NCBI RefSeq assembly: GCF_026162625.1
Contig: NZ_JAOTBD010000011.1
Span: 30,141 to 94,140 of the forward strand
Length of the DNA: 64,000 nt
Reading direction: 5' to 3'
DNA from: Paracoccus beibuensis
GTDB taxonomy: Bacteria; Pseudomonadota; Alphaproteobacteria; Rhodobacterales; Rhodobacteraceae
Shown: positions 46,414-58,134 of the stretch, piece after piece
How positions within the stretch are numbered: the stretch's first letter is position 1
Layout of the letters: the number at the start of each line of letters is the position of its first letter
Notes under the pieces: model-generated
Seen by the model: the letters and a program-made list of their open reading frames with translations, nothing else
Told to the model about the DNA's origin: nothing
Databases searched by the model: none
Program-made: the position numbers and the translations under genes

Positions 46414-46617
46414 ATGGGAATAAGAGAACCGAAACTGGCCACGGCTGAATTCAGCCGCGACATGGTCGAGACCATGCTCACCTATTTCGACGCTTATGCG
46501 GACGAGGGTGTGCTGAAGGTCGAGGTTACCTCGTGGGGCCTCTGGCTGCCCAACAAGACAACCGGCGGCCGCCAGTTCCTGGGCCTTGCCAAGCTTCCGG
46601 ACGGGGTGCGGCAATGA
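46414..46617 (+). CDS. Small protein encoded between luxR and luxI (67 aa)
   Basis: I do not recognise the family. The start is clear: CAGGAGAACGACG then ATG. The sequence has an N-terminal amphipathic helix (FSRDMVETMLTYFDAYADEG), a short strand (LKVEVTSWGLWLP) and a basic end; there is no signal or membrane segment. Its stop overlaps the luxI start (ATGA), so luxI translation depends on ribosomes finishing this gene. Candidates are a dedicated regulator or chaperone of the synthase or LuxR, or a leader gene that sets luxI expression. Confidence 0.75.
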   Translation: MGIREPKLATAEFSRDMVETMLTYFDAYADEGVLKVEVTSWGLWLPNKTTGGRQFLGLAKLPDGVRQ

Positions 46618-47246
46618 GGGACGAAATCACGGTCACGACCGCAAGCGACCTGAAGGTCGAGGTCATCAACCTGCCCCGCGACATGTCGCGCTTCGATCTG
46701 GTCGCCAGCTTCCTCAGGCTGCGCAAGCAGATCTTCGTGGACCGGATGGCGTGGCCCCTGCACCACGCCGACGGGATCGAGTTCGAGCAGTACGACACCT
46801 TCGACACCGCCTACGTGATCGCCCACCAGGACGGTCGCGCGCTTGGCGGGGCGCGCCTCAAGCGGACGGATCGGTCGTTCGGGGGGGGCAAGGTCGTCTA
46901 CTCGTACATGATTCGCGATGCGCATCTGGGGCTGCTGCCGGGCATGCCCACGAACCTCTGCCACGAGGAGCCGCCCGTCGATGCCCAGGCTTGGGAACTG
47001 ACGCGCTTCGCATCGCTGCCGATCCCCGGCCTGGCCGAAAGGATCCTCGACGTGTCGAACGACTACCTGCACAGGGTTGGCGCCACGGACTGTCTGTTCC
47101 TGGGACCGCCCGCCTTCCTGCGGATGGCCACCCGGCTTGGCTGGACGCCGCGTCCGATGGGCGACCTGGTGTCGAACGACGACGGCAAGTTCCTGGCCTT
47201 TGCCTGCGCCGTGCGCGAGCCGGTGCACGGCAGCGTCGCACACTAG
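46614..47246 (+). CDS. luxI: Acyl-homoserine-lactone synthase
   Basis: Makes an N-acyl-homoserine lactone from SAM and an acyl donor; 210 aa. The conserved family residues are visible: Arg/Phe/Trp in LRLRKQIFVDRMAWPL, Asp residues in EFEQYDTFDTAYVIA, Arg in ALGGARLKRTD, and Glu/Arg in WELTRFASLPI. The ATG overlaps the previous stop; an upstream in-frame Met at 46533 lies inside the small gene and precedes non-conserved sequence. The acyl chain length cannot be judged. It is divergent from the luxR-type regulator. Confidence 0.9.
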   Translation: MRDEITVTTASDLKVEVINLPRDMSRFDLVASFLRLRKQIFVDRMAWPLHHADGIEFEQYDTFDTAYVIAHQDGRALGGARLKRTDRSFGGGKVVYSYMIRDAHLGLLPGMPTNLCHEEPPVDAQAWELTRFASLPIPGLAERILDVSNDYLHRVGATDCLFLGPPAFLRMATRLGWTPRPMGDLVSNDDGKFLAFACAVREPVHGSVAH

Positions 47247-47250
47247 GGCG

Positions 47251-48765
47251 TCAGCAGCCGGAAGCCCGGCCGGGAGTCATCCCCGGCCGGGGCTCGGTCC
47301 GCCGCAGCGAACCCGCGCCAAGCCGCGCGCGGATGGCGCGCGACAGCGCGTCGATGCCGACCGTGATCAGCCCGGTCGCGGCAAGGATGACGACTGCGCG
47401 GTCGATGCGCAGCGCGACGATGGCGTCGTCCAGGTAGAATCCCAGGGTCGCGATGCCCAGGATGCCCATGATCGCGGATTCGCGGATGATGATCTCCCAC
47501 CGGTAGAGACACAGGGCGACGAAGCTGCCGAACAGCCTCGGCACGATCTCCCACCCCCAGAGGGTCAGGCCCTTCGGCGCATCGGGTCGCAGCGTCAGGC
47601 CCTCGGCCTGCCGGCCCAGCAGGTGGCCGATGATCGCGCCGTTGTGCAGGCCGAGGGCCAGGATCGCGGGCAGCATCGACGGTCCCCAGACCTGCAGGAA
47701 CAGGTAGGCCAGCATGTATTCGGGAAACGACCGCAGCACGACCAGCAGCAGGTGCCCCGCCGCCGCGCCGATGCGGCCGGTCACGCGCGGCACGATCAGC
47801 GCCTGTCCGACGAAAGCCACCAGTCCCGCGACGATCAGCGCCAGCTGCGCCACGACCAGCGTCGCCGCCAGCCCCGGCAGGATCGCGCCCTGCAGCAGGT
47901 CCCACAGCCACGGTCCCAGTTCCCCCAAGTTCCCTTGGCGCAGCGGGGCCGGCACGATGTCCTCCGACAGGAACCGCCACAGCGCGCCGCTGCCCATCGG
48001 CGGCGCCGTCACCTGCGACAGCATCACCCCCGCCGCAACCAGCCAGGCCGGCAGCAGTCGCGGCCGCATCCAGACGCGGACGCTGGCGATCAGCGCGATA
48101 TAGATGGCCATGACGGCCCCCGCCGCGCCATATTCGCCCTGCTTGAAGAAGCTGTCCAACTGGAAGCCAAGCGTCGGAAGTCCGACGAATCCCAGCACCG
48201 CCGACGACCTCAGCCCGCATTCCAGGCGATAGAGCGCGTAGCTGACCATCTGCGGCCGCGCCAATGGCACCCGGGCCCACAGGAACCGCGTCAGCGGGTC
48301 GACCCTTGGCCCCAGCCAGTCGGCGGGACGGCGGTCGGCCTCGTCCAGGATCTCGGACAGGACTTTGGCAAAGATGCCGCAATACGGCAGAGCGATTGCC
48401 AGAAGCCCGGTCCAGACGCCGATCCCGAAGACCTGCATCAGCATCAGCGCCCAGAAGAGCTCGTGGACCGAGCGCAGCGCGATGGCAGGGATGCGAACCA
48501 CGCGCAGGCGATAGAAGGGCGCCAGGCACAGCCCCGCCAGCCCGCCGATGGCAACGCCCGCGATGGCGAAGGCGACGGTCAGGGCGACGGCGCGGGCGAT
48601 CTGCTCGATGGCATTGAATTCGGGCGACAGGAAGCCCCCCGCCATGCGGGACAGGGTTGCCCACGGATCATGTCCCGCCGTCGTCAGGTCCGCAAAGGGC
48701 AGGCAGAGCGCCGCGACAAACAGGAAGGCCGCGACGACGCCGGTCCGCGACAGCTCAACGCGCAT
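47251..48765 (-). CDS. phnE: Phosphonate-type ABC transporter permease, double-length (PhnE-PhnE fusion)
   Basis: A 504-aa permease, about twice the usual PhnE length of about 260. Each half has the PhnE features. The first half carries RSVHELFWALMLMQVFGIGV and RLECGLRSSAVLGFVGLPTL. The second repeats the plan with RSFPEYMLAYLFLQVWGPSM and YRWEIIIRESAIMGILGIAT, the latter being the EAA-like loop. It therefore probably supplies both permease halves in one chain. It overlaps phnC by 11 bases. The start is MRVELSRTG; the upstream frame is inside phnC. The substrate (phosphonate, phosphite or phosphate ester) is unknown. Confidence 0.88.
   Translation of the reverse strand: MRVELSRTGVVAAFLFVAALCLPFADLTTAGHDPWATLSRMAGGFLSPEFNAIEQIARAVALTVAFAIAGVAIGGLAGLCLAPFYRLRVVRIPAIALRSVHELFWALMLMQVFGIGVWTGLLAIALPYCGIFAKVLSEILDEADRRPADWLGPRVDPLTRFLWARVPLARPQMVSYALYRLECGLRSSAVLGFVGLPTLGFQLDSFFKQGEYGAAGAVMAIYIALIASVRVWMRPRLLPAWLVAAGVMLSQVTAPPMGSGALWRFLSEDIVPAPLRQGNLGELGPWLWDLLQGAILPGLAATLVVAQLALIVAGLVAFVGQALIVPRVTGRIGAAAGHLLLVVLRSFPEYMLAYLFLQVWGPSMLPAILALGLHNGAIIGHLLGRQAEGLTLRPDAPKGLTLWGWEIVPRLFGSFVALCLYRWEIIIRESAIMGILGIATLGFYLDDAIVALRIDRAVVILAATGLITVGIDALSRAIRARLGAGSLRRTEPRPGMTPGRASGC
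47265..47291. terminator. GC-rich hairpin at the luxI/phnE convergent junction
   Basis: Two copies of the self-palindrome CCCGGCCGGG (47265-47274 and 47282-47291) are separated by seven bases and can form a 10-bp stem. It lies just after luxI and inside the last codons of the convergent permease gene. There is no T-run, so intrinsic termination is unproven; it may slow or end transcription from either side. Confidence 0.45.
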
Positions 48766-49411
48766 AAAGCGCCTCGAGCCGCGCGGCGTCCAGGTCGGCC
48801 ACCGGCAGGTCGAAGAGTAACGCGCCTTGGCGCAGGCCGACCACCCGCGTCGCGAAGGCGCGCGCAATGCCCACATCATGCAGCGCCAGGACGGCACTCG
48901 GGAAGGCATCGCGGATCGTTGCCGCCAGCGCATCCGCCTGCCGGGGGTCGACCGCAGACAGCGGCTCGTCCCCCAGGATCAGGTCGCCGCCGCGATGCAG
49001 GGCGCGCGCCAGCGCGACGCGCTGCTTCTGGCCGCCGGACAGGCCCTCGACCGCGCGATCGGCCTCGGGGGCCAAGCCCACGCGCGACAGGTCCGACAGC
49101 GCGGCGTCACGGTCGGCCCGCGCGGGCCGGATCAGCGTCCGCAGGTTGCGCCACGCCCCGTGGTCGTCCAGCCGACCCATCAGGACGTTGCGCAGCGCCG
49201 ACAGCTGCGGCACCAGTGCCGCGTCCTGCGGGACCAGCGCCACGCGCAGATCCCGCACCGCCGCCGCATGAAGCGCCGCCAACAGCGTCGACTTGCCGGA
49301 CCCGCTGCGCCCCAGCAGCGCCACGCGTTCGCCGGGGGCGACGTTCAGCCGGACGTCGCGCAGGACCGGCGCGCCGCCATAGCCAAGATCGGCGCCGTGC
49401 AGCAACAGCAT
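48755..49411 (-). CDS. phnC: Phosphonate-type ABC transporter, ATP-binding protein
   Basis: ATPase of 218 aa for the PhnD/PhnE transporter. It has Walker A GRSGSGKSTLL, the Q loop ALVPQDAALVPQL followed by LRNVLMGRL, which is typical of PhnC, the signature LSGGQKQRVALARAL, Walker B LILGDEPLSAVD and the switch His in LALHDVGIA. The protein is shorter than usual PhnC (about 250-280 aa), with little after the switch region. Its start codon is four bases after the phnD stop. Confidence 0.88.
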   Translation of the reverse strand: MLLLHGADLGYGGAPVLRDVRLNVAPGERVALLGRSGSGKSTLLAALHAAAVRDLRVALVPQDAALVPQLSALRNVLMGRLDDHGAWRNLRTLIRPARADRDAALSDLSRVGLAPEADRAVEGLSGGQKQRVALARALHRGGDLILGDEPLSAVDPRQADALAATIRDAFPSAVLALHDVGIARAFATRVVGLRQGALLFDLPVADLDAARLEALYAR

Positions 49412-49414
49412 GAG

Positions 49415-50278
49415 TTACTCCAGCAGGTCCAGCTCTCGGCCGACTTCCTCAATTGCGACATAATCCTGATTATCAGCCGGGATGAACGCATTGCGCGGGA
49501 AGGCCGCCAGCAGCTCGGGATCGTCCATCCCGACCAGCGCCGCCTGGACCTTGTCGGCAAAACCCTCGCCCCAGCGCTCGTCCACGTCGCCGCGGATCGT
49601 CCAGTTGTAGTCGGGATAAGGCGGCGTCTGCCAGATGATCTTGGCGGTCTCGACCTCTGGCGCGCCGTCGGCGACGGCCTGGTCATAGACCGCAAAGTTC
49701 AGCGCGCCGACCTGCCAGGCGCCCGACGCGACCAGCCGGAGCGTCTGGCTGTGATCGCCCGAGAATCCGACGCGGCCGAAGAACTCGTCCGGCGCCTCGC
49801 CGGTGTTCTGGCGGATCGCGTATTCCGGCATCAGCCGGCCCGAGGTGGAGGTCTTGGCCCCGAAGGTGAAGGACATGCCGCGGGCTTCCTCGGGAAACTT
49901 CTCGGATCGCGTGAGGCCGGTGTCTTCATGGGCGATGAAATAGCTGACGAACTTGGTATCCTCGTCACCTTGCGCGATGGCGCGGGCGCCCGGAACCAAT
50001 AGCCGAGCCTGGACACCCGACAGTCCGCCGAACCAGGCCAGCTGGACCTGGTCGTTGCGGAAGGCCGTGACGGCGGCGGGATAGGACTTGACCGCCACGA
50101 ATTCGACCGGGACGTCCAGCTCCTCGGACAGGTACTCGGCCACGGCACCGAAGCGTTCGGCCAGCCGGGTCTCGTCCTCGTCGGGAATGGCCGAGAAATA
50201 GAGCGTGTCCTGGGCGGCGGCCGCGCCCGACAGGGTCAGGCAGGCCGCAAGCAGCGGGGCAAAAAGACGCGGGGTCAT
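49415..50278 (-). CDS. phnD: Phosphonate-type ABC transporter, periplasmic binding protein
   Basis: Binding protein of 287 aa. It has a signal peptide MTPRLFAPLLAACLTLSG with an Ala-rich cleavage site about residue 22, then LYFSAIPDEDETRLAERFGA, and the PhnD motifs VQLAWFGGLSGVQA and FGAKTSTSGRLMPEY that hold the phosphorus-oxyanion ligands. It is the first gene of a phnD-phnC-phnE operon. No C-P lyase, phosphonatase or phosphite dehydrogenase gene is in the window. The upstream frame extension is Arg/Pro-rich, so the signal-peptide Met is preferred. Confidence 0.88.
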   Translation of the reverse strand: MTPRLFAPLLAACLTLSGAAAAQDTLYFSAIPDEDETRLAERFGAVAEYLSEELDVPVEFVAVKSYPAAVTAFRNDQVQLAWFGGLSGVQARLLVPGARAIAQGDEDTKFVSYFIAHEDTGLTRSEKFPEEARGMSFTFGAKTSTSGRLMPEYAIRQNTGEAPDEFFGRVGFSGDHSQTLRLVASGAWQVGALNFAVYDQAVADGAPEVETAKIIWQTPPYPDYNWTIRGDVDERWGEGFADKVQAALVGMDDPELLAAFPRNAFIPADNQDYVAIEEVGRELDLLE

Positions 50279-50469
50279 CAGGGGCACCTTGGTTAATCGT
50301 GGTCGGACTTGGGCGAAACGGCGGGCCGGGCCTCGCACCGTGATCAAGCCCCCGACATGCGGCGCGCCCTCCGGCCCGAGCGCACCCGGCGCACCGGCTT
50401 GCGCGGCCCTTCTAGCGCGGGCCCTGCCCCTGGCGCAAGCCGCCGGATCTTGACTTGGCTCGTGCGCCG

Positions 50470-51455
50470 GACGTTTCGACAAGTCCAGCTGGGACTACCA
50501 GATCGGCGGCGACGGCTATGCGCTGACCGACCCGACGCTGCAGGACCCCGTTGCGTCCGGCAGTTGCTGCGCCAGCATATCGATGTCTACACGCCCGAAT
50601 TCGTCGAGAAACGTCACCGGCACCTCGCGCGACAAGTTCCTGACCATCTGCGAGATGATCGGCGAATGCAGCGCGCCGGACAAGGTGATGACATCGATGT
50701 ACGCGCTTGGCTGGCCCCAGCATTCCAGGCGTGCCCAGAACATCCGCGGCATGGCGATGCTGCAGCTGATCCCGGGCAAGTTCGAGATGCCCGGCGGCGG
50801 GATGAACGCGTTGCGCGGCCACTCCAACATTCAGGGCCTGACCGATGTGGGACTGATGTCGAACCTGATCCCGAATACCTGAACATCCCGACGGAGAAGG
50901 AGTCGACTGGCAGACCTACCTGTCGATGCGGACCTTCACGCCGCTGTGGCCGGGCCAGACCAGCTATCGGCAGAGCTATCCCAAGTTCATGGTTAGCTTC
51001 ATGAAGGCCATGGGGGGCGACGCCGCCACGGTCGGGAACAACTGCGCCTATGATTGCCTGCCCAACCTGGATGTCCCCGCCTATGACACCCTGCGCATGT
51101 TCGAGCTGATGGACCACGGCCGGGTGAACCTCTACTTCTTCCAGGGCTTCAATCAGATGCTGTCGACTGCCAACCGGGAAAGGATCACGCGGTCACTGTC
51201 CAAGCTGAAGATGCTGGGGGTGATGGACCCGCTGTCCTCTGAAGCCTCGCACGTCTGGCAGAATAACGGCATCCACGATGACGTGGATCCGTCGGCCATC
51301 CAGACCGAGGTGCTGGAGTTGCCAACGACCTGCTTCGCCGAGGAAGAGGGCGCCCTGGTCAGGTCGGGCCATTGGCTGCAATGGCACTGGCCGGGCGCGT
51401 CGCCGCCGGGCGAGGCCAAGCACGACACCCGGATCATGGCGCAGATATTCCTGCG
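50470..51455 (+). pseudogene. fdnG: Formate dehydrogenase-N alpha subunit, internal fragment
   Basis: The remnant of a selenocysteine formate dehydrogenase catalytic subunit. It begins inside the gene with FDKSSWDYQIGGDGYAL and continues with RQLLRQHIDVYTPEFVE (another frame), DKFLTICEMIGECSAPDKVM and MNALRGHSNIQGLTDVGLMS. After a frameshift near 50880 it goes on with KFMVSFMKAMGGDAA, ALVRSGHWLQWHWPGASPPG and IMAQIFLR. The N-terminal third, including the twin-Arg signal, 4Fe-4S ligands and the UGA selenocysteine codon, is missing, as is the C-terminus. At about 51455 the frame runs straight into a selA fragment. Confidence 0.88.
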
Positions 51456-52269
51456 GATGCCAGACATCATGGTCCGCACAGGAACGAAGCTGGTCGAGGT
51501 GGAGACGAAGAATCGCACCCACCTGCGCGATTTACCAGGATGCGCTGTTGGACCGGACGGGCCTGATCCTCAAGGTCCACCAGGTCGAACTACCGGATCG
51601 ATGGCTCCTCGGCCCAGCCCCGCAACTGTCCCCGGCGGCGCCTGACGCGGGCGTCGTGCCGCTGAACAACCTCGGTGTTGGGACGGTGGTCGATCTGTCA
51701 CGCTGGGGCCTGCGCCGCGAGCCCACCGTGGCAGAGGGCGGTGACCTTGCCACCTTTTCGGGCGACAAGCTGCTGGGCGGGCCCCAGGCGGGATTCATCG
51801 TTGGCCACCGCGACCTGATTGCTCAGATCAACAGGAACCCGCTGAAGCAAGCCCTGCGGCTGGACAAGATCCGCATCGCGGCGCTGCAGGCGACGCTGCG
51901 GCTCTGTCGCGATCCGGACCGGCTGGCGAACCGGCTGGCCGTGCTGCAGATGCTGGCACGGCCGCAGCCGGACATAGCGGCGCAGGCCAAGCGCCGAAGG
52001 TCGCCGCGTTTGCGCCCGTCGGCGCAAGGCGCAACCTTGCGACTGCGCCAGCCAGCCGGTCGGGCGCGCTGCCGACGGCCACGATCCCGTCGGCCGGGTT
52101 GCGGCTGACGGGACGGAGCGGCGATGCACCCGACCGGCTGGCGGCCCTGCTGTGCGCCCTGCCCCGTCCCGTGGGCGGCCAAATCCGTGATGGCGCGCTG
52201 ATCCTGGACCTGCGCTGCCTTCACGCCGACGCCGACGCCGACCTGCCGGGGGCGCTGGCGGACCTTTGA
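51456..52269 (+). pseudogene. selA: Selenocysteine synthase, 3' fragment
   Basis: Starts abruptly at RMPDIMVRTGTKLVEV, corresponding to the middle of SelA (about residue 175 of 460 in the E. coli protein), fused in frame to fdnG. After THLRD a frameshift leads to [35 protein letters not shown] and the PLP-Lys motif [19 protein letters not shown], then [20 protein letters not shown]. Another frame holds the C-terminal [15 protein letters not shown] block. The N-terminal 40% is deleted. Its stop touches the selB start (TTGA). Confidence 0.88.
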
Positions 52270-54145
52270 TCGTCGGAACGGCGGGAAATCTCGACCATGG
52301 CAAGACCGCCCTGATGAAGGCCCTGACCGGCACCGATGCCGACCATCTGGCCGAGGAAAAGCCGCGCGGCATCACGATCGACCTTGGCTTCGCCTATGCT
52401 GATCTGGAAGGTGGCGTCGTCACCGGCTTTGTGGACGTTCCGGGACACGAGCGGCTGATCCACACCACGCTGGCCGGCGCAGCGGGCACCGACCTGGCCC
52501 TGCTGGTGGTGGCTTGCGACGACGGCGTGATGCCGCAAACGGCCGAGCATCTGGCGATCCTGAACCTGCTGGGCCTGTCCCGCAGGCTGGCTGCCTTGAT
52601 CAAGGCGGTCCTTGCGGATGATCGCCGGCGGCAGGAGGTGACCGGCCAGATCAGCGCACTGCTGCGCGACAGTTGCCTTGCGGCAGCGCCGATCAGTCCT
52701 ATCTCGACCGTGACCGGAGAGGGGCTGGACACGCTCCGCGCGGCCGTTGTGGAAGCCGAGCGCCTCGCTGAGGCCCGCGCGGCCGAGGGTCCGTTCCAGT
52801 CAACCGCAGCTTCACGCTGCAAGGGGCGGGCACGGTGGTGCCCGGCACCGTTCTCTCGGGCCGCGTGGCCTTTGACGAACAAACCACCGTCCCGCCTAGC
52901 CGCCCGCGTTCGCGGCATCCATGCCCAGAATCGCGCGGCGACCGAGGTGTTGGCGGGCCAGCGCTGCGCCCTGAACCTTGCCGGAGAGGCAATCGCAAAG
53001 GACGCCGTTCGCCGGGGCGACGTGGTTCTGTCGCCCGCGCTCCACGCGCTGACCGACAGGATCGACACGACGCTGATCGTTCTGGGGACCGAGCCGAAGC
53101 CCATTGGCACCTCGTTTCCGGCCCGCCTGCACAGTCACGCGACCGAGGTCGGGGCGCGCATCGTTCCACTGGCCGACCCCATCGCGCCCAGAAAGGCGGG
53201 GCCGGTGCAGATCGTCGCGGATCGGCCGGTCGCGGCAGCAATCGACGACGGTTTCATCCTGCGCAACATGTCGGCCAGCCGGACCATCGGCGGCGGGGCC
53301 TTCCTGAACCTGTGTCCCGCGGCGCACACGCGGCGCACGTCCGAACGGCTGGCCTTGATCGGCGCCGGATCCCGCCGAAGCTCTGGCGGGAATGCTGCTG
53401 ATCGCGCCCGTGGACCTGCAGCGTCACCTGCGACCGTGGCCTGACCCCCGAGCCAGGCGCAGGCCGCGCTGGATCGGGCGGGCGGGACTGCTGTCGGTGG
53501 GCTGGACCTCTCGGTGGACGATCTGCAGGCGTTGATCGCGGCCTGCAGGGCCAGTTGGCGCAGTGCCACGCAGATAACCCGGACCCGCCGGGTTTGGGCC
53601 GCCAGCGCCTGCGCCTGTCGTTGTTGCCGCGCCTCTCCAAGGACGCGCATCCGGCTTTCCTGCGACGGGCCGCCGACGCGGGAGAGATCGTGATGGACAG
53701 CGCCCTCCTGCGCCTGCCCGGCCACGAGGTCCGCCTGACACCAGATGACGAGGCGCTGTGGGACCGGATCCACCCGGCCCTTCTGGGCGAGATGTGCTTT
53801 CGCCCGCCCCGCGTCCGCCACTTTGCCGCCGAGCACGGCATCGACGAACGCAAGGTCCGCCGTGTCCTGAAGCTGACGCAGAGGCTGGGGCGGACGGACC
53901 AGATCGCGCAGGACCAATTCTTCGCGCGCGAGGTGACGGCGCGGATGGTCGCGATCCTGCGCGACGTCGCCGCAGAGTCCTCCGATGGCTGGTTCACCGC
54001 CGCCGCCTTCCGCGACCGCGTCCAGGACGGCCGCAAGGTCGCCGTCGAGATCTCGGACGTCTTCGACCGCCACGGCGTTACCCTGCGACGCGGCGACCTG
54101 CGGCGGCTGACCCGCACCGGCTGGATCTTTTCGGCTAGAGCGTGA
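52266..54145 (+). pseudogene. selB: Selenocysteine-specific elongation factor, frameshifted
   Basis: GTPase-translation factor that delivers Sec-tRNA to UGA codons. The start (TTG) gives [20 protein letters not shown], the G1 loop with Asn in place of the usual His, then [14 protein letters not shown] and [19 protein letters not shown]. Around 52797-52895 the frame slips out and back ([13 protein letters not shown] is in another frame). It is lost again near 53370, and the winged-helix C-terminus (RLSLLPRLSKDAHPAFLRRA, ALLGEMCFRPPRVRHFAAEH) is in a third frame. No full-length product is possible. It overlaps the end of putR by 11 bases. Confidence 0.88.
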
Positions 54146-54617
54146 GGCCGCCCTGCTCGATCACCGCCTCCATCGCGACATAGCTGGAGGTGGCGTTCAC
54201 ATGCGGCAGAGACGAGATCTTCTCGGCCATGATGCGGCGATAGTCGGTCATGTCGCGAGAGCGGACCTTCAGAAGATAGTCGAAGCCGCCGGCGATCATG
54301 TAGCATTCCTCGACCTCGGGGATGAGGCGGACGGCGGCGTTGAACGCCTCGAGCGCCTTCTGGCGCGTGTCCGTCATCCGTACCTCCACATAGGTGACAT
54401 GGGTCAGGCCAAGCCGCACCGGCGACAGGGTCGCGCGATAGCCGGTGATCAGCCCCGCATCCTCCAGCTGCCTGATCCGCAGCGCCACGGGCGTCTTGGA
54501 CAGGCCTACCTTGCGCGCAAGCTCGGTCACCGGGATGCGGGCGTTGGCGGTCAGTTCGGCCAGGATGCGCCGGTTGGTCGGGTCCAGAAGTTCGTTCACC
54601 GCATTTTCGTCCGTCAA
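54135..54617 (-). CDS. putR: Lrp/AsnC-family regulator of proline utilisation
   Basis: A 160-aa Lrp-type regulator. The N-terminal HTH is LDPTNRRILAELTANARIPV followed by LARKVGLSKTPVALRIRQLE. The C-terminal RAM domain has TYVEVRMTDTRQKALEAFNA and ECYMIAGGFDYLLKVRSRDM, with the conserved Gly-Phe-Asp-Tyr ligand loop. It is divergent from putA with under 100 bases between, the usual place for PutR, which activates putA in response to proline. No ATG is available: TTG at 54617 or GTG at 54599 are the candidate starts, neither with a strong ribosome-binding site. Confidence 0.85.
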   Translation of the reverse strand: MTDENAVNELLDPTNRRILAELTANARIPVTELARKVGLSKTPVALRIRQLEDAGLITGYRATLSPVRLGLTHVTYVEVRMTDTRQKALEAFNAAVRLIPEVEECYMIAGGFDYLLKVRSRDMTDYRRIMAEKISSLPHVNATSSYVAMEAVIEQGGLTL

Positions 54618-54711
54618 AATGGTCTGTTCGGCTGTAGTTTGCCCCGAAGATGGGCACAACGTCCAGATGCGACGCTGTATCTTGCGGCGAACATCCAAAG
54701 GGGACCGCCGA

Positions 54712-57700
54712 ATGTACGATCTCGACCCGACCGATCTAGGACTGGACGCCAAGTTCCAGCCAGAAGGCCCCCTGCTGGATCGCCTGATCCGCGAGGCTGC
54801 CCTGTCCGACCAGACGCGCGCCCGCATCAGCGCCCGTGCAGCCACGCTGATCCGGCGCATCCGTGCCGAATCGAAGCCCACCATGATGGAGCTGATGTTG
54901 GCGGAATACGGCCTTTCGACGCGCGAGGGCGTGGCCCTGATGTGCCTGGCCGAGGCGATGCTGCGCGTGCCCGACCGCGCCACGATGGATGCCCTGATCG
55001 AGGACAAGATCGCGCCGTCCGATTGGGGCAAGCACCTGGGCGAAAGCTCCTCCAGCATGGTCAACGCCTCGACCTGGGCGCTGATGCTGACGGGCCGCGT
55101 TCTGGAGGATGCGCAACCGGGCCTTGCCGGCACCCTGCGCGGCGCGATTCGCCGCCTTGGGGAACCCGTGATCCGCACGGCCGTCACCCGCGCCATGCGC
55201 GAGATGGGCCGTCAGTTCGTCCTGGGCCAGACCATCGAAGCCGCGCTGGAGCGGGCCAAGGGGCAGGAAGCCAAGGGCTATTCCTACAGCTACGACATGC
55301 TGGGCGAGGCGGCGATGACCGCCCGCGATGCTGGCCGCTATGCCGCCGAATACCGCAAGGCCATCGCCGCCATCGCCGGGTCCTGCACGAAGGGCTCGGT
55401 CCGCAAGAACCCCGGCATCTCGATCAAGCTCTCGGCGCTGCATCCGCGCTACGAGGTCGCGAACGAGGCCCGCGTCATGGCCGAACTGGTGCCGGTGGTG
55501 CTGGAACTGGCGCAGCAGGCGCGCGCCGCCAACATGGGCCTGAACATCGACGCCGAGGAGCAGGACCGCCTGGCCCTGTCGCTGAAGGTGATCGAGGCCG
55601 TGCTGTCCGGCCCGTCGCTGGCCGGCTGGGACGGCTTCGGCGTCGTGGTGCAGGCCTATGGCAAGCGCGCCGGTGCGGCCATTGACCGCCTTCATGCGCT
55701 GGCCACGCGGCTGGACCGCCGCATCATGGTGCGCCTGGTCAAGGGCGCCTATTGGGACACAGAGATGAAGCGCGCCCAGGTCGAAGGCCTGCCGGGCTTC
55801 CCGCTCTATACCTCGAAGACGGCGACGGATGTCAGCTACCTGTCGCTGGCGACCAGGCTGTTGCGCATGTCGGACCGGATCTATCCGCAGTTCGCCACGC
55901 ACAACGCACATTCGGTGGCTGCGGTGCTGGAACTGGCCGGCAACCTGGGCGCCGCCGAGGGCACGTTCGAGTTCCAGCGCCTGCACGGCATGGGCGAGCG
56001 TCTGCATGACATCGTCCTGCGCGACCACGGCACTGCCTGCCGCATCTATGCCCCGGTCGGCGCGCACCGGGACCTGCTGGCCTACCTGGTCCGCCGCCTG
56101 CTGGAAAACGGCGCGAACTCCAGCTTCGTGAACCAGATCGTCGACGACGCCGTCTCGCCCGAGGAGATCGCCCGCGATCCGTTCGATGCCCTTGCCACTG
56201 CGCGGGTGCCCGAGGCGCTGCTGGCGCCCGACGCCATCTATGGCGACGGCCGCGTTAACGCCCGTGGCTTCGACCAGACGGCCGAGGATGAGCTGGCCCG
56301 CATCTTCGCCGCCCGCGACGTTGCCATTGCGAATGCCGGTCCAGCCACAACAGCCGAGGCGACCGGAGCCGCCGTCCCGGTCCTGAACCCCGCCACGGGC
56401 GATGTGCTGGCCCAGATTACCGAAGCCGACGAGGGGACCGTCGCCCGCGCGATCGACGCCGCTTGCACCTGGGACGCGCCCGCCGCCACCCGCGCTGGCG
56501 TTTTGCGCCGCGCTGCCGACCTCTACGAGGCCGAGTTCGGTCCTATCTTCGGCCTCGTGGCGCGCGAAGCCGGCAAGACGCTGAACGACGCCGTGGCCGA
56601 GTTGCGCGAGGCCGTCGACTTTCTGCGCTATTACGCGCAGCAGGGCGAAAGTCGGAGCGAGGCTCCGCGCGGCATCATCGCCGCGATCAGCCCCTGGAAC
56701 TTCCCGCTGGCGATCTTCACCGGCCAGATCGCGGCCGCGCTCATGGCGGGGAACGGCGTCCTGGCCAAGCCGGCCGAACAAACGCCGCTGATCGCCGCGC
56801 TGGCCGTGCGTCTGCTGCACCAGGCGGGCGTGCCGGCGACAGCGCTGCAGCTGCTGCCGGGCGACGGGGCGACCGTCGGTGCGGCGCTGACCCGCGCTGT
56901 GCGCATCGACGGCGTGGTCTTCACCGGCGGCACGGACACGGCGCGGCTGATTGCCACCAGCATGGCCAAGCACATGCGCCCCGGCACGCCGCTGGTCGCC
57001 GAAACCGGCGGCCTGAACGCGATGATCGTGGACAGCACCGCCCTGCCCGAACAGGCGGTGCGCGACATCGTCGCCTCCAGCTTCCGGTCGGCGGGTCAGC
57101 GCTGCTCGGCGCTGCGCTGCCTCTATGTGCAGGAAGACGTCGCGCCGCACGTGATCCGCATGATCCAAGGCGCGATGGACGAACTGACCGTCGGCGACCC
57201 CTGGAACCTGGCGACCGACGTCGGCCCTGTCATCGACGCCGAGGCGCAGTCCGGCATCATGGCCTATCTGGCAGACGGCAAACGCCGCATCCTGCACCAG
57301 GTGCCTGTGCCGTCGCAGGGCCGTTTCGTCCCGCCGACCCTGATGAAGGTGTCCGGCATCGAGGAGATGGACCAAGAGGTTTTCGGCCCCGTCCTGCATG
57401 TCGCCACCTACAAGTCGCGCGACCTGGACAAGGTCGTGGCGGCGATCAACGGCCGGGGCTATGGCCTGACCTTCGGCCTGCACACCCGGATCGACAGCCG
57501 CGTGCAGGAGGTGACCGAGGCGATCAACGTCGGCAACATCTATGTCAACCGCAACCAGGTCGGCGCGACCGTGGGCAGCCAGCCCTTCGGTGGCGAGGGC
57601 CTGTCGGGCACCGGCCCCAAGGCGGGCGGTCCGCTTTACCTGCCGCGCTTCTTCGCACCCGCCACGCCCAAGGCCGGCGCGCCCTGGCGAACGGCCGACA

Positions 57701-58134
57701 GCCATGACCGGCTGGCCGGCGAACTGGCCTCGCCCCCGCCGGCCCCCGCGCCCGAGGAGACGCTGATGCCCGGACCGACCGGCGAACTGAACCGCCTGCA
57801 GACGCTGGCGCGCGGTCCTGTGCTGTGCCTCGGCCCCGGTCCAGAGGCGACGGCCGCCCAGGTGCAGGCCGTCACCCGTGGCGGCGGTCAAGCCGTCGCC
57901 GCAAGCGGAACGATCGATCCGCAGTGGCTCGAGTCGCTGCCGAACCTTGCGGGCGTCCTCTGGTGGGGCGACGACGAGATCGGTCGCGCCCTGGCGCAGG
58001 CGCTGTCGCGCCGATCGGGCCCGCTGGTGGCGCTGATCACCGCGATGCCGGATCGCGCCCATCTTTGCCACGAGCGGCACCTCTGCGTCGACACAACCGC
58101 CGCCGGCGGCAACGCGGCACTTCTGGCCGGCTGA
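54712..58134 (+). CDS. putA: Bifunctional proline dehydrogenase / P5C dehydrogenase
   Basis: Oxidises proline to glutamate in two steps; 1140 aa. It lacks the N-terminal ribbon-helix-helix DNA-binding domain of enteric PutA. The proline dehydrogenase barrel (about residues 85-520) has GKHLGESSSSMVNASTWALM, SIKLSALHPRYE, RLVKGAYWDTEMKRAQ and FATHNAHSVAAVLELA. The aldehyde dehydrogenase domain (about residues 560-1000) has ISPWNFPLAIFTGQIAAAL, the catalytic Glu in VAETGGLNAMIVDS, the catalytic Cys in FRSAGQRCSALRCL and EVFGPVLHV. A C-terminal region of about 140 residues is typical of long PutA. The start follows AAAGGGGACCGCCGA; expression is probably under the divergent putR. Confidence 0.93.
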   Translation: MYDLDPTDLGLDAKFQPEGPLLDRLIREAALSDQTRARISARAATLIRRIRAESKPTMMELMLAEYGLSTREGVALMCLAEAMLRVPDRATMDALIEDKIAPSDWGKHLGESSSSMVNASTWALMLTGRVLEDAQPGLAGTLRGAIRRLGEPVIRTAVTRAMREMGRQFVLGQTIEAALERAKGQEAKGYSYSYDMLGEAAMTARDAGRYAAEYRKAIAAIAGSCTKGSVRKNPGISIKLSALHPRYEVANEARVMAELVPVVLELAQQARAANMGLNIDAEEQDRLALSLKVIEAVLSGPSLAGWDGFGVVVQAYGKRAGAAIDRLHALATRLDRRIMVRLVKGAYWDTEMKRAQVEGLPGFPLYTSKTATDVSYLSLATRLLRMSDRIYPQFATHNAHSVAAVLELAGNLGAAEGTFEFQRLHGMGERLHDIVLRDHGTACRIYAPVGAHRDLLAYLVRRLLENGANSSFVNQIVDDAVSPEEIARDPFDALATARVPEALLAPDAIYGDGRVNARGFDQTAEDELARIFAARDVAIANAGPATTAEATGAAVPVLNPATGDVLAQITEADEGTVARAIDAACTWDAPAATRAGVLRRAADLYEAEFGPIFGLVAREAGKTLNDAVAELREAVDFLRYYAQQGESRSEAPRGIIAAISPWNFPLAIFTGQIAAALMAGNGVLAKPAEQTPLIAALAVRLLHQAGVPATALQLLPGDGATVGAALTRAVRIDGVVFTGGTDTARLIATSMAKHMRPGTPLVAETGGLNAMIVDSTALPEQAVRDIVASSFRSAGQRCSALRCLYVQEDVAPHVIRMIQGAMDELTVGDPWNLATDVGPVIDAEAQSGIMAYLADGKRRILHQVPVPSQGRFVPPTLMKVSGIEEMDQEVFGPVLHVATYKSRDLDKVVAAINGRGYGLTFGLHTRIDSRVQEVTEAINVGNIYVNRNQVGATVGSQPFGGEGLSGTGPKAGGPLYLPRFFAPATPKAGAPWRTADSHDRLAGELASPPPAPAPEETLMPGPTGELNRLQTLARGPVLCLGPGPEATAAQVQAVTRGGGQAVAASGTIDPQWLESLPNLAGVLWWGDDEIGRALAQALSRRSGPLVALITAMPDRAHLCHERHLCVDTTAAGGNAALLAG

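Follow-up and report, generated by a model that had tools for sequence, protein, structure and literature searches.

Has a Paracoccus bacterium whose formate dehydrogenase and selenocysteine (Sec) genes lie broken side by side lost the ability to make selenoproteins, and if so, how far has the loss gone? The original prediction, made from the letters of the DNA, was that the locus is a decayed Sec locus in which fdnG is joined to selA by a deletion and selenoprotein synthesis is lost. The window, i.e., the whole stretch of 64,000 nucleotides that was analyzed (G000:C2:30141-94140), contains no ambiguous bases and comes from Paracoccus beibuensis, a species represented by one draft genome (G000; 3.94 Mb, 99 contigs, 99.99% complete), and the evidence is that of sequence alone. 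We compared the locus with G094, its intact syntenic reference, and with G091, G005 and G074, and surveyed 125 Paracoccus genomes across the genus. In a putA tree of seven genomes, G000 and G094 are sisters (support 1.0). The locus comprises the following features.

47254 to 50347, reverse strand: phnE, phnC and phnD, ABC transporter genes forming one flank, with orthologues in G094, G091, G005 and G074
50471 to 50475: scar of deletion 1, where 1056 bp of the G094 locus are gone by comparison with G094
50475 to 51455, forward strand: fdnG pseudogene fragment with 4 frame-changing indels
51455 to 51458: scar of deletion 2, with 4274 bp gone and an in-frame fdnG-selA join
51458 to 52263, forward strand: selA 3' pseudogene with 6 frame-changing indels
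52266 to 54138, forward strand: selB pseudogene with 7 frame-changing indels, His to Asn in G1 and a start codon changed from ATG to TTG
54135 to 54657, reverse strand: Lrp/AsnC-type regulator, part of the other flank, with its domains in the last part of the open reading frame 54135-55196
54712 to 58134, forward strand: putA, flank and control

Pfam domains support phnD and phnC, while phnE is named by its position, as its 560-aa reading frame has no Pfam match. A protein with an autoinducer synthase domain (PF00765, 44.8 bits) is encoded next to the phn genes, at 46533-47246 on the forward strand.

In G094, phnE-phnC-phnD are followed by a divergent fdnG (with an in-frame UGA and SECIS_3), fdnH, fdnI, fdhE, selA, selB, the Lrp-type regulator and putA, where the genes from fdnG to selB are named by NCBIfam profiles. 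The window aligns to this order in three blocks, i.e., 47240-50471 (86.0% identity), 50475-51455 (89.6%, within fdnG) and 51458-58134 (82.6%), and the gene order comparison that the original prediction had proposed thus shows two clean gaps. The first deletion removed the start, UGA codon and SECIS of fdnG; the second took the fdnG 3' end, fdnH, fdnI, fdhE and the selA 5' end, which are the genes, in the order, that had been inferred as lost. As had also been predicted, the fdnG fragment lacks its UGA region and is fused in frame to SelA near 51455: the open reading frame 50926-51645 is chimeric, with Pfam matches to Molybdopterin oxidoreductase as well as to SelA. The separate first deletion had not been foreseen. 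No Rfam match occurs in the window, whereas SECIS_3 was found in all four relatives compared. The block order in the alignments of G091, G005 and G074 is that of the window, with around 1.1 kb extra between selB and the regulator in G074. The region 50475-54138 is confirmed, as far as DNA comparison can do so, as a pseudogene remnant of fdnGHI-fdhE-selA-selB.

Small lesions follow the same boundaries. Relative to G094, the relics carry 17 frame-changing indels, while phnC, phnE and putA, our controls for indels and dN/dS, carry none; phnD was left out of these controls because the length of its 5' part varies among the relatives. In selB, where at least three frame changes were originally noted, seven indels are counted. 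A like comparison of G091, G005 and G074 found selA and selB free of frame changes, and one such change in fdnG, that of G005.

The substitutions point in the same direction. Lineage dN/dS was estimated from triplets with three outgroups and 300 bootstraps over codons. On the G000 lineage it is 0.47 (0.28-0.81) for fdnG, 0.39 (0.24-0.65) for selA and 0.30 (0.22-0.43) for selB, against 0.09 (up to 0.30), 0.12 (0.06-0.22) and 0.16 (0.11-0.23), respectively, on the sister lineage, while the flanks (phnC, phnE and putA) show 0.13 (0.10-0.17) and 0.12 on the two lineages. Changes unique to G000 at codon positions 1, 2 and 3 number 21, 19 and 19 in fdnG, 13, 19 and 22 in selA and 49, 33 and 50 in selB, compared to 35, 34 and 125 in the flanks. 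The ratio of nonsynonymous to synonymous changes is 155:90 in the relics, compared with 65:129 for the flanks (Fisher p 6e-10) and 53:83 for fdnG, selA and selB in the sister lineage (p 6e-6). Residues identical in the four relatives are changed in G000 at 39 of 273 sites in fdnG, 27 of 198 in selA and 58 of 451 in selB (12.9%), against 2.5-3.7% in the flank proteins (phnD, phnC, phnE and putA). Taken as a set, the relics are evolving under relaxed constraint by these measures, a pattern less clear for single genes given their wide dN/dS ranges. They look to have been free of constraint over a considerable share of the branch that leads from the sister split to G000, the crude fractions being 0.41 for fdnG, 0.30 for selA and 0.17 for selB. 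The bootstrap ranges of the three genes overlap, and therefore no order of decay among them is established.

Beyond the window, the genome holds a decayed tRNA-Sec gene (selC) on another contig (C13:3252-3341), which the original prediction had not described. It is a full-length match of 46.9 bits, 0.1 bit below the Rfam cut-off, and keeps the UCA anticodon. Its alignment with the selC of G094 extends around 340 bp downstream, through a small convergent gene common to both, so it is the orthologue. It differs from G094 selC by 11 substitutions and two lost bases, whereas G094 selC differs from those of G111 and G101 by one and two substitutions. Compared with 37 other selC genes (30 of the best-scoring and seven near relatives, out of 96), the relic has changes in 10 of 68 otherwise invariant columns (0 to 2 in 12 control selC) and four of 30 failing base pairs (0 or 1 in the 37). 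ARAGORN finds a tRNA-Sec at the loci of three relatives but not at this one, and we infer that the RNA of the relic does not work. Other tRNA-Sec profile matches, at C30 and C99 (a 49.5-bit match among these candidates), were rejected as ARAGORN assigns them to tRNA-Ser.

A second Sec system elsewhere in the genome was also considered and rejected, as no other SelA, SelB or good tRNA-Sec was found. A genome-wide search with the SelA profile matches only in the window, in three pieces, with no intact selA; the SelB profile returns the window pieces and other translational GTPases, none of them above the SelB cut-off. The best SelB-profile matches outside the window are two of equal score, one of which (L014) scores as EF-Tu. 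A search for fdnG gives six matches in G000, the listed ones being the two window pieces. The whole-genome search for selC, selD and further SelA or SelB that had been suggested thus returned a decayed selC, an intact selD and no second SelA or SelB.

Relatives, whole-genome searches and substitution patterns therefore agree with the predicted loss. The locus is very probably a Sec operon remnant shaped by two large deletions and 17 indels, in a Paracoccus host that is likely to be without any Sec decoding. With the Sec genes broken and the tRNA-Sec gene damaged, this bacterium likely makes no selenoproteins; Sec would no longer be inserted, and formate oxidation by the FdnG enzyme would be gone. 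In the course of events that we propose, this lineage would no longer have been under selection for the Sec-containing formate dehydrogenase, an initial lesion would have left the remaining operon useless, free decay would then have followed, and the tRNA-Sec gene on its other contig would have decayed along with the operon.

It is very improbable that the damage is instead an assembly or sequencing artefact, i.e., that a normal locus was misjoined at 51455 and read with base errors. The genome is a draft in 99 contigs, and the single length change in the fdnG of G005 shows that such doubts can have grounds. Yet, the segments that a false join would have displaced are absent elsewhere in a 99.99% complete genome: a search of all of G000 with the G094 stretch recovers only the surviving part of fdnG and two short weak matches (125 and 40 bp). 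Moreover, base errors would have had to spare phnC, phnE and putA alongside, in a window free of ambiguous bases. The substitutions are relaxed in the relics only, and assembly does not create substitutions. Finally, selC has decayed as well, on a separate contig.

Some parts of the machinery do speak against full decay. Besides the UCA anticodon of selC, the GTPase part of SelB is still largely open (392 codons), and a SelA motif survives at about 51761, with a lysine that we take to be the PLP lysine. The original prediction was right about this motif, but its conclusion from it that the decay is recent is not supported, given 17 frame changes, two large deletions and an even spread of changes in fdnG. 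The open SelB frame might suggest that the truncated GTPase part, or the fdnG-selA chimera, is maintained as a new functional protein. For the first 170 codons of selB taken by themselves, constraint is not clearly weaker (dN/dS 0.32, 0.18-0.53) than in the sister (0.20, 0.11-0.38). We hold such reuse to be even less probable than an artefact, as the codon-position spread is even in fdnG and nearly so in selA and selB, conserved SelB residues have changed several-fold more often than those of the flank proteins, and the G1 His, present in all four relatives, is replaced by the Asn originally noted. Least probable of all is that the locus arrived already broken from another bacterium: the selC relic and its G094 counterpart share only the immediate downstream gene, but the locus has the phn genes on one side and lrp-putA on the other, just as it does in the four relatives, its identity to the sister resembles that of the flanks, and the putA tree unites G000 with G094.

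Returning to the loss of Sec decoding, the intact selD of G000 (417 bits, open frame) needs an explanation. The genome also encodes an intact selenouridine synthase gene (mnmH; above the cut-off, open frame), so the selenouridine gene set of selD and mnmH is present. The genus supports a link between the two. Among 125 Paracoccus genomes, surveyed with stricter filters, a tRNA-Sec match of at least 65 bits occurs in 96 (65-85 bits), and the 29 without one comprise G000, G016, 25 genomes without the Sec gene set, and G083 and G041. The latter two were rejected as losses because they have SelA and a UGA-type fdnG; in G083 the selB match reaches roughly base 52 of the contig, and the G041 assembly consists of about 620 contigs. 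None of the 25 Sec-less genomes holds a UGA-type fdnG. SelA gives no match, or a weak one below 45 bits (G018, G075 and G090), in 18 of them, and in the other seven (G103, G106, G112, G114, G115, G117 and G121) DNA matches are absent or weak. In these 25 genomes, mnmH is above the cut-off in 18, selD is above it in the same 18, and both are missing in the same seven (G097, G063, G049, G061, G121, G046 and G043, with G061 and G063 among the less complete genomes). The nominal chance of this match is 2e-6, which is not a true probability because the Sec-less genomes are related. Since selD follows mnmH in Sec-less genomes, it is no evidence of Sec use, and we rejected it as a sign thereof. Most likely, selD would have been kept in G000 since its product, selenophosphate, still serves MnmH in the synthesis of 2-selenouridine in tRNA.

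In three of the 18 Sec-less genomes that have mnmH, selD scores around 280 bits and lies in a longer frame, of 729-758 aa (G114:C13, G115:C21 and G117:C1); it is perhaps a fused, separately acquired selD. Full-length fdnG genes without an in-frame stop, presumably of the Cys type, occur at G063:C10:595999-599049, G077:C4:1211512-1214559 and G070:C2:189746-192793; G077 and G070 hold a UGA-type fdnG besides, while G063, one of the 25, has no SelA, selD or mnmH match. Two full SelA matches and two selD in G048 (C1 and C2), and two tRNA-Sec matches of different length in G123 (C16 and C17), indicate that some Paracoccus may have two Sec gene sets.

Sec decoding looks to have been lost a second time in G016, independently of G000 and more recently. 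At the G016 locus (L187; G016:C11:43500-63000), selA retains about 411 of its 457 codons and then runs into selB near codon 56, owing to a deletion of around 0.3 kb that also took the G1 region of SelB; selB has one more frame change, and in fdhE a stretch of 537 bp has given way to 48 bp. The surroundings of the locus yielded no tRNA-Sec, and the best match in the genome, with an E of 1.9e-8, is comparable to tRNA-Ser cross-matches. Its fdnG, however, is full length and keeps the UGA and SECIS_3 (81.8 bits), with a dN/dS in two parts of 0.11 and 0.10 against 0.13 and 0.10 in the intact sister G091; selA and selB (0.24 and 0.33) are slightly above those of G091 (0.22 and 0.26). With fdnG intact and evolving much as in G091, the loss looks young, and we infer that fdnG translation now ends at the UGA. 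On the putA tree, G016 groups with G091 and G005 (0.996), in which selA and selB have no frame changes, so the losses in G016 and G000 are separate. The original prediction had seen in G000 a snapshot of selenoprotein synthesis being lost; the loss stands, but G000 is already past that stage, and G016 is nearer to it. In G005 (L057), one length change splits fdnG into two frames, with low dN/dS and with selA, selB and selC that look intact; this may be either a sequencing error or an early step of loss.

Intact fdnGHI-fdhE-selAB loci of Paracoccus (G094 and relatives) share genes, order and flanks with G000, which differs by its two deletions, 17 frame changes and decayed selC. They resemble the fdoGHI-selABC clusters of Alphaproteobacteria in the part of PMC8124441 consulted. 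In the sections of Romero et al. 2005 (PMC1273633) drawn on here, some Yersinia pestis strains lost Sec decoding by a selB frameshift, a very recent loss with the UGA-containing gene present, although a later paper (PMC1780047, in excerpt) has the frame possibly restored in translation. As far as these excerpts go, that case resembles G000 in its mostly Sec-decoding relatives (genus or species), its selB pseudogene and the selD still there. It is unlike G000 in keeping selA, selC, selD and a UGA-containing formate dehydrogenase gene, as the selA, selB, selC and fdnG of G000 have all decayed; G016 is closer to it. The same sections of Romero et al. attribute the presence of SelD in organisms without Sec to selenouridine. 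With the selenouridine-only bacteria described there and in the consulted part of Peng et al. 2016 (PMC5029168), which have selD and mnmH (ybbB) and no Sec genes, G000 shares an intact selD and mnmH and the lack of working Sec genes, but its discarded Sec genes are still legible. Loss of Sec and other selenium traits is treated broadly by Zhang et al. 2006 and Peng et al. 2016, in the portions seen; the main texts of both leave Paracoccus unmentioned. Pseudogenes of tRNA-Sec are discussed for animals in the excerpt of PMC5330540. No report of Sec loss in Paracoccus was found in the literature on selC, selenocysteine and formate dehydrogenase, as represented by partial texts and thin coverage of subscription journals; that literature includes a paper on selC nested in selB. 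The kind of event is thus already known, while the Paracoccus case and the series within the genus appear to be new within the literature searched.

Tentatively, and with more doubt than confidence, the wider pattern may be that Paracoccus loses Sec repeatedly and by differing routes. All stages would then be found in one genus, i.e., intact loci, broken machinery with a perfect selenoenzyme gene (G016), decay of everything (G000) and complete absence (25 of 125), and selD would be tied strictly to selenouridine. In G000, decay would perhaps have begun with the enzyme and reached SelB at the end, opposite to the order in G016. Loss of Sec is mostly judged from the presence or absence of genes, whereas the DNA of G000 reveals which genes went, how they went and what kept selD. 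A genus with species at differing stages could test the cost of losing a Sec enzyme, and could show the fate of a gene whose in-frame UGA is no longer decoded.
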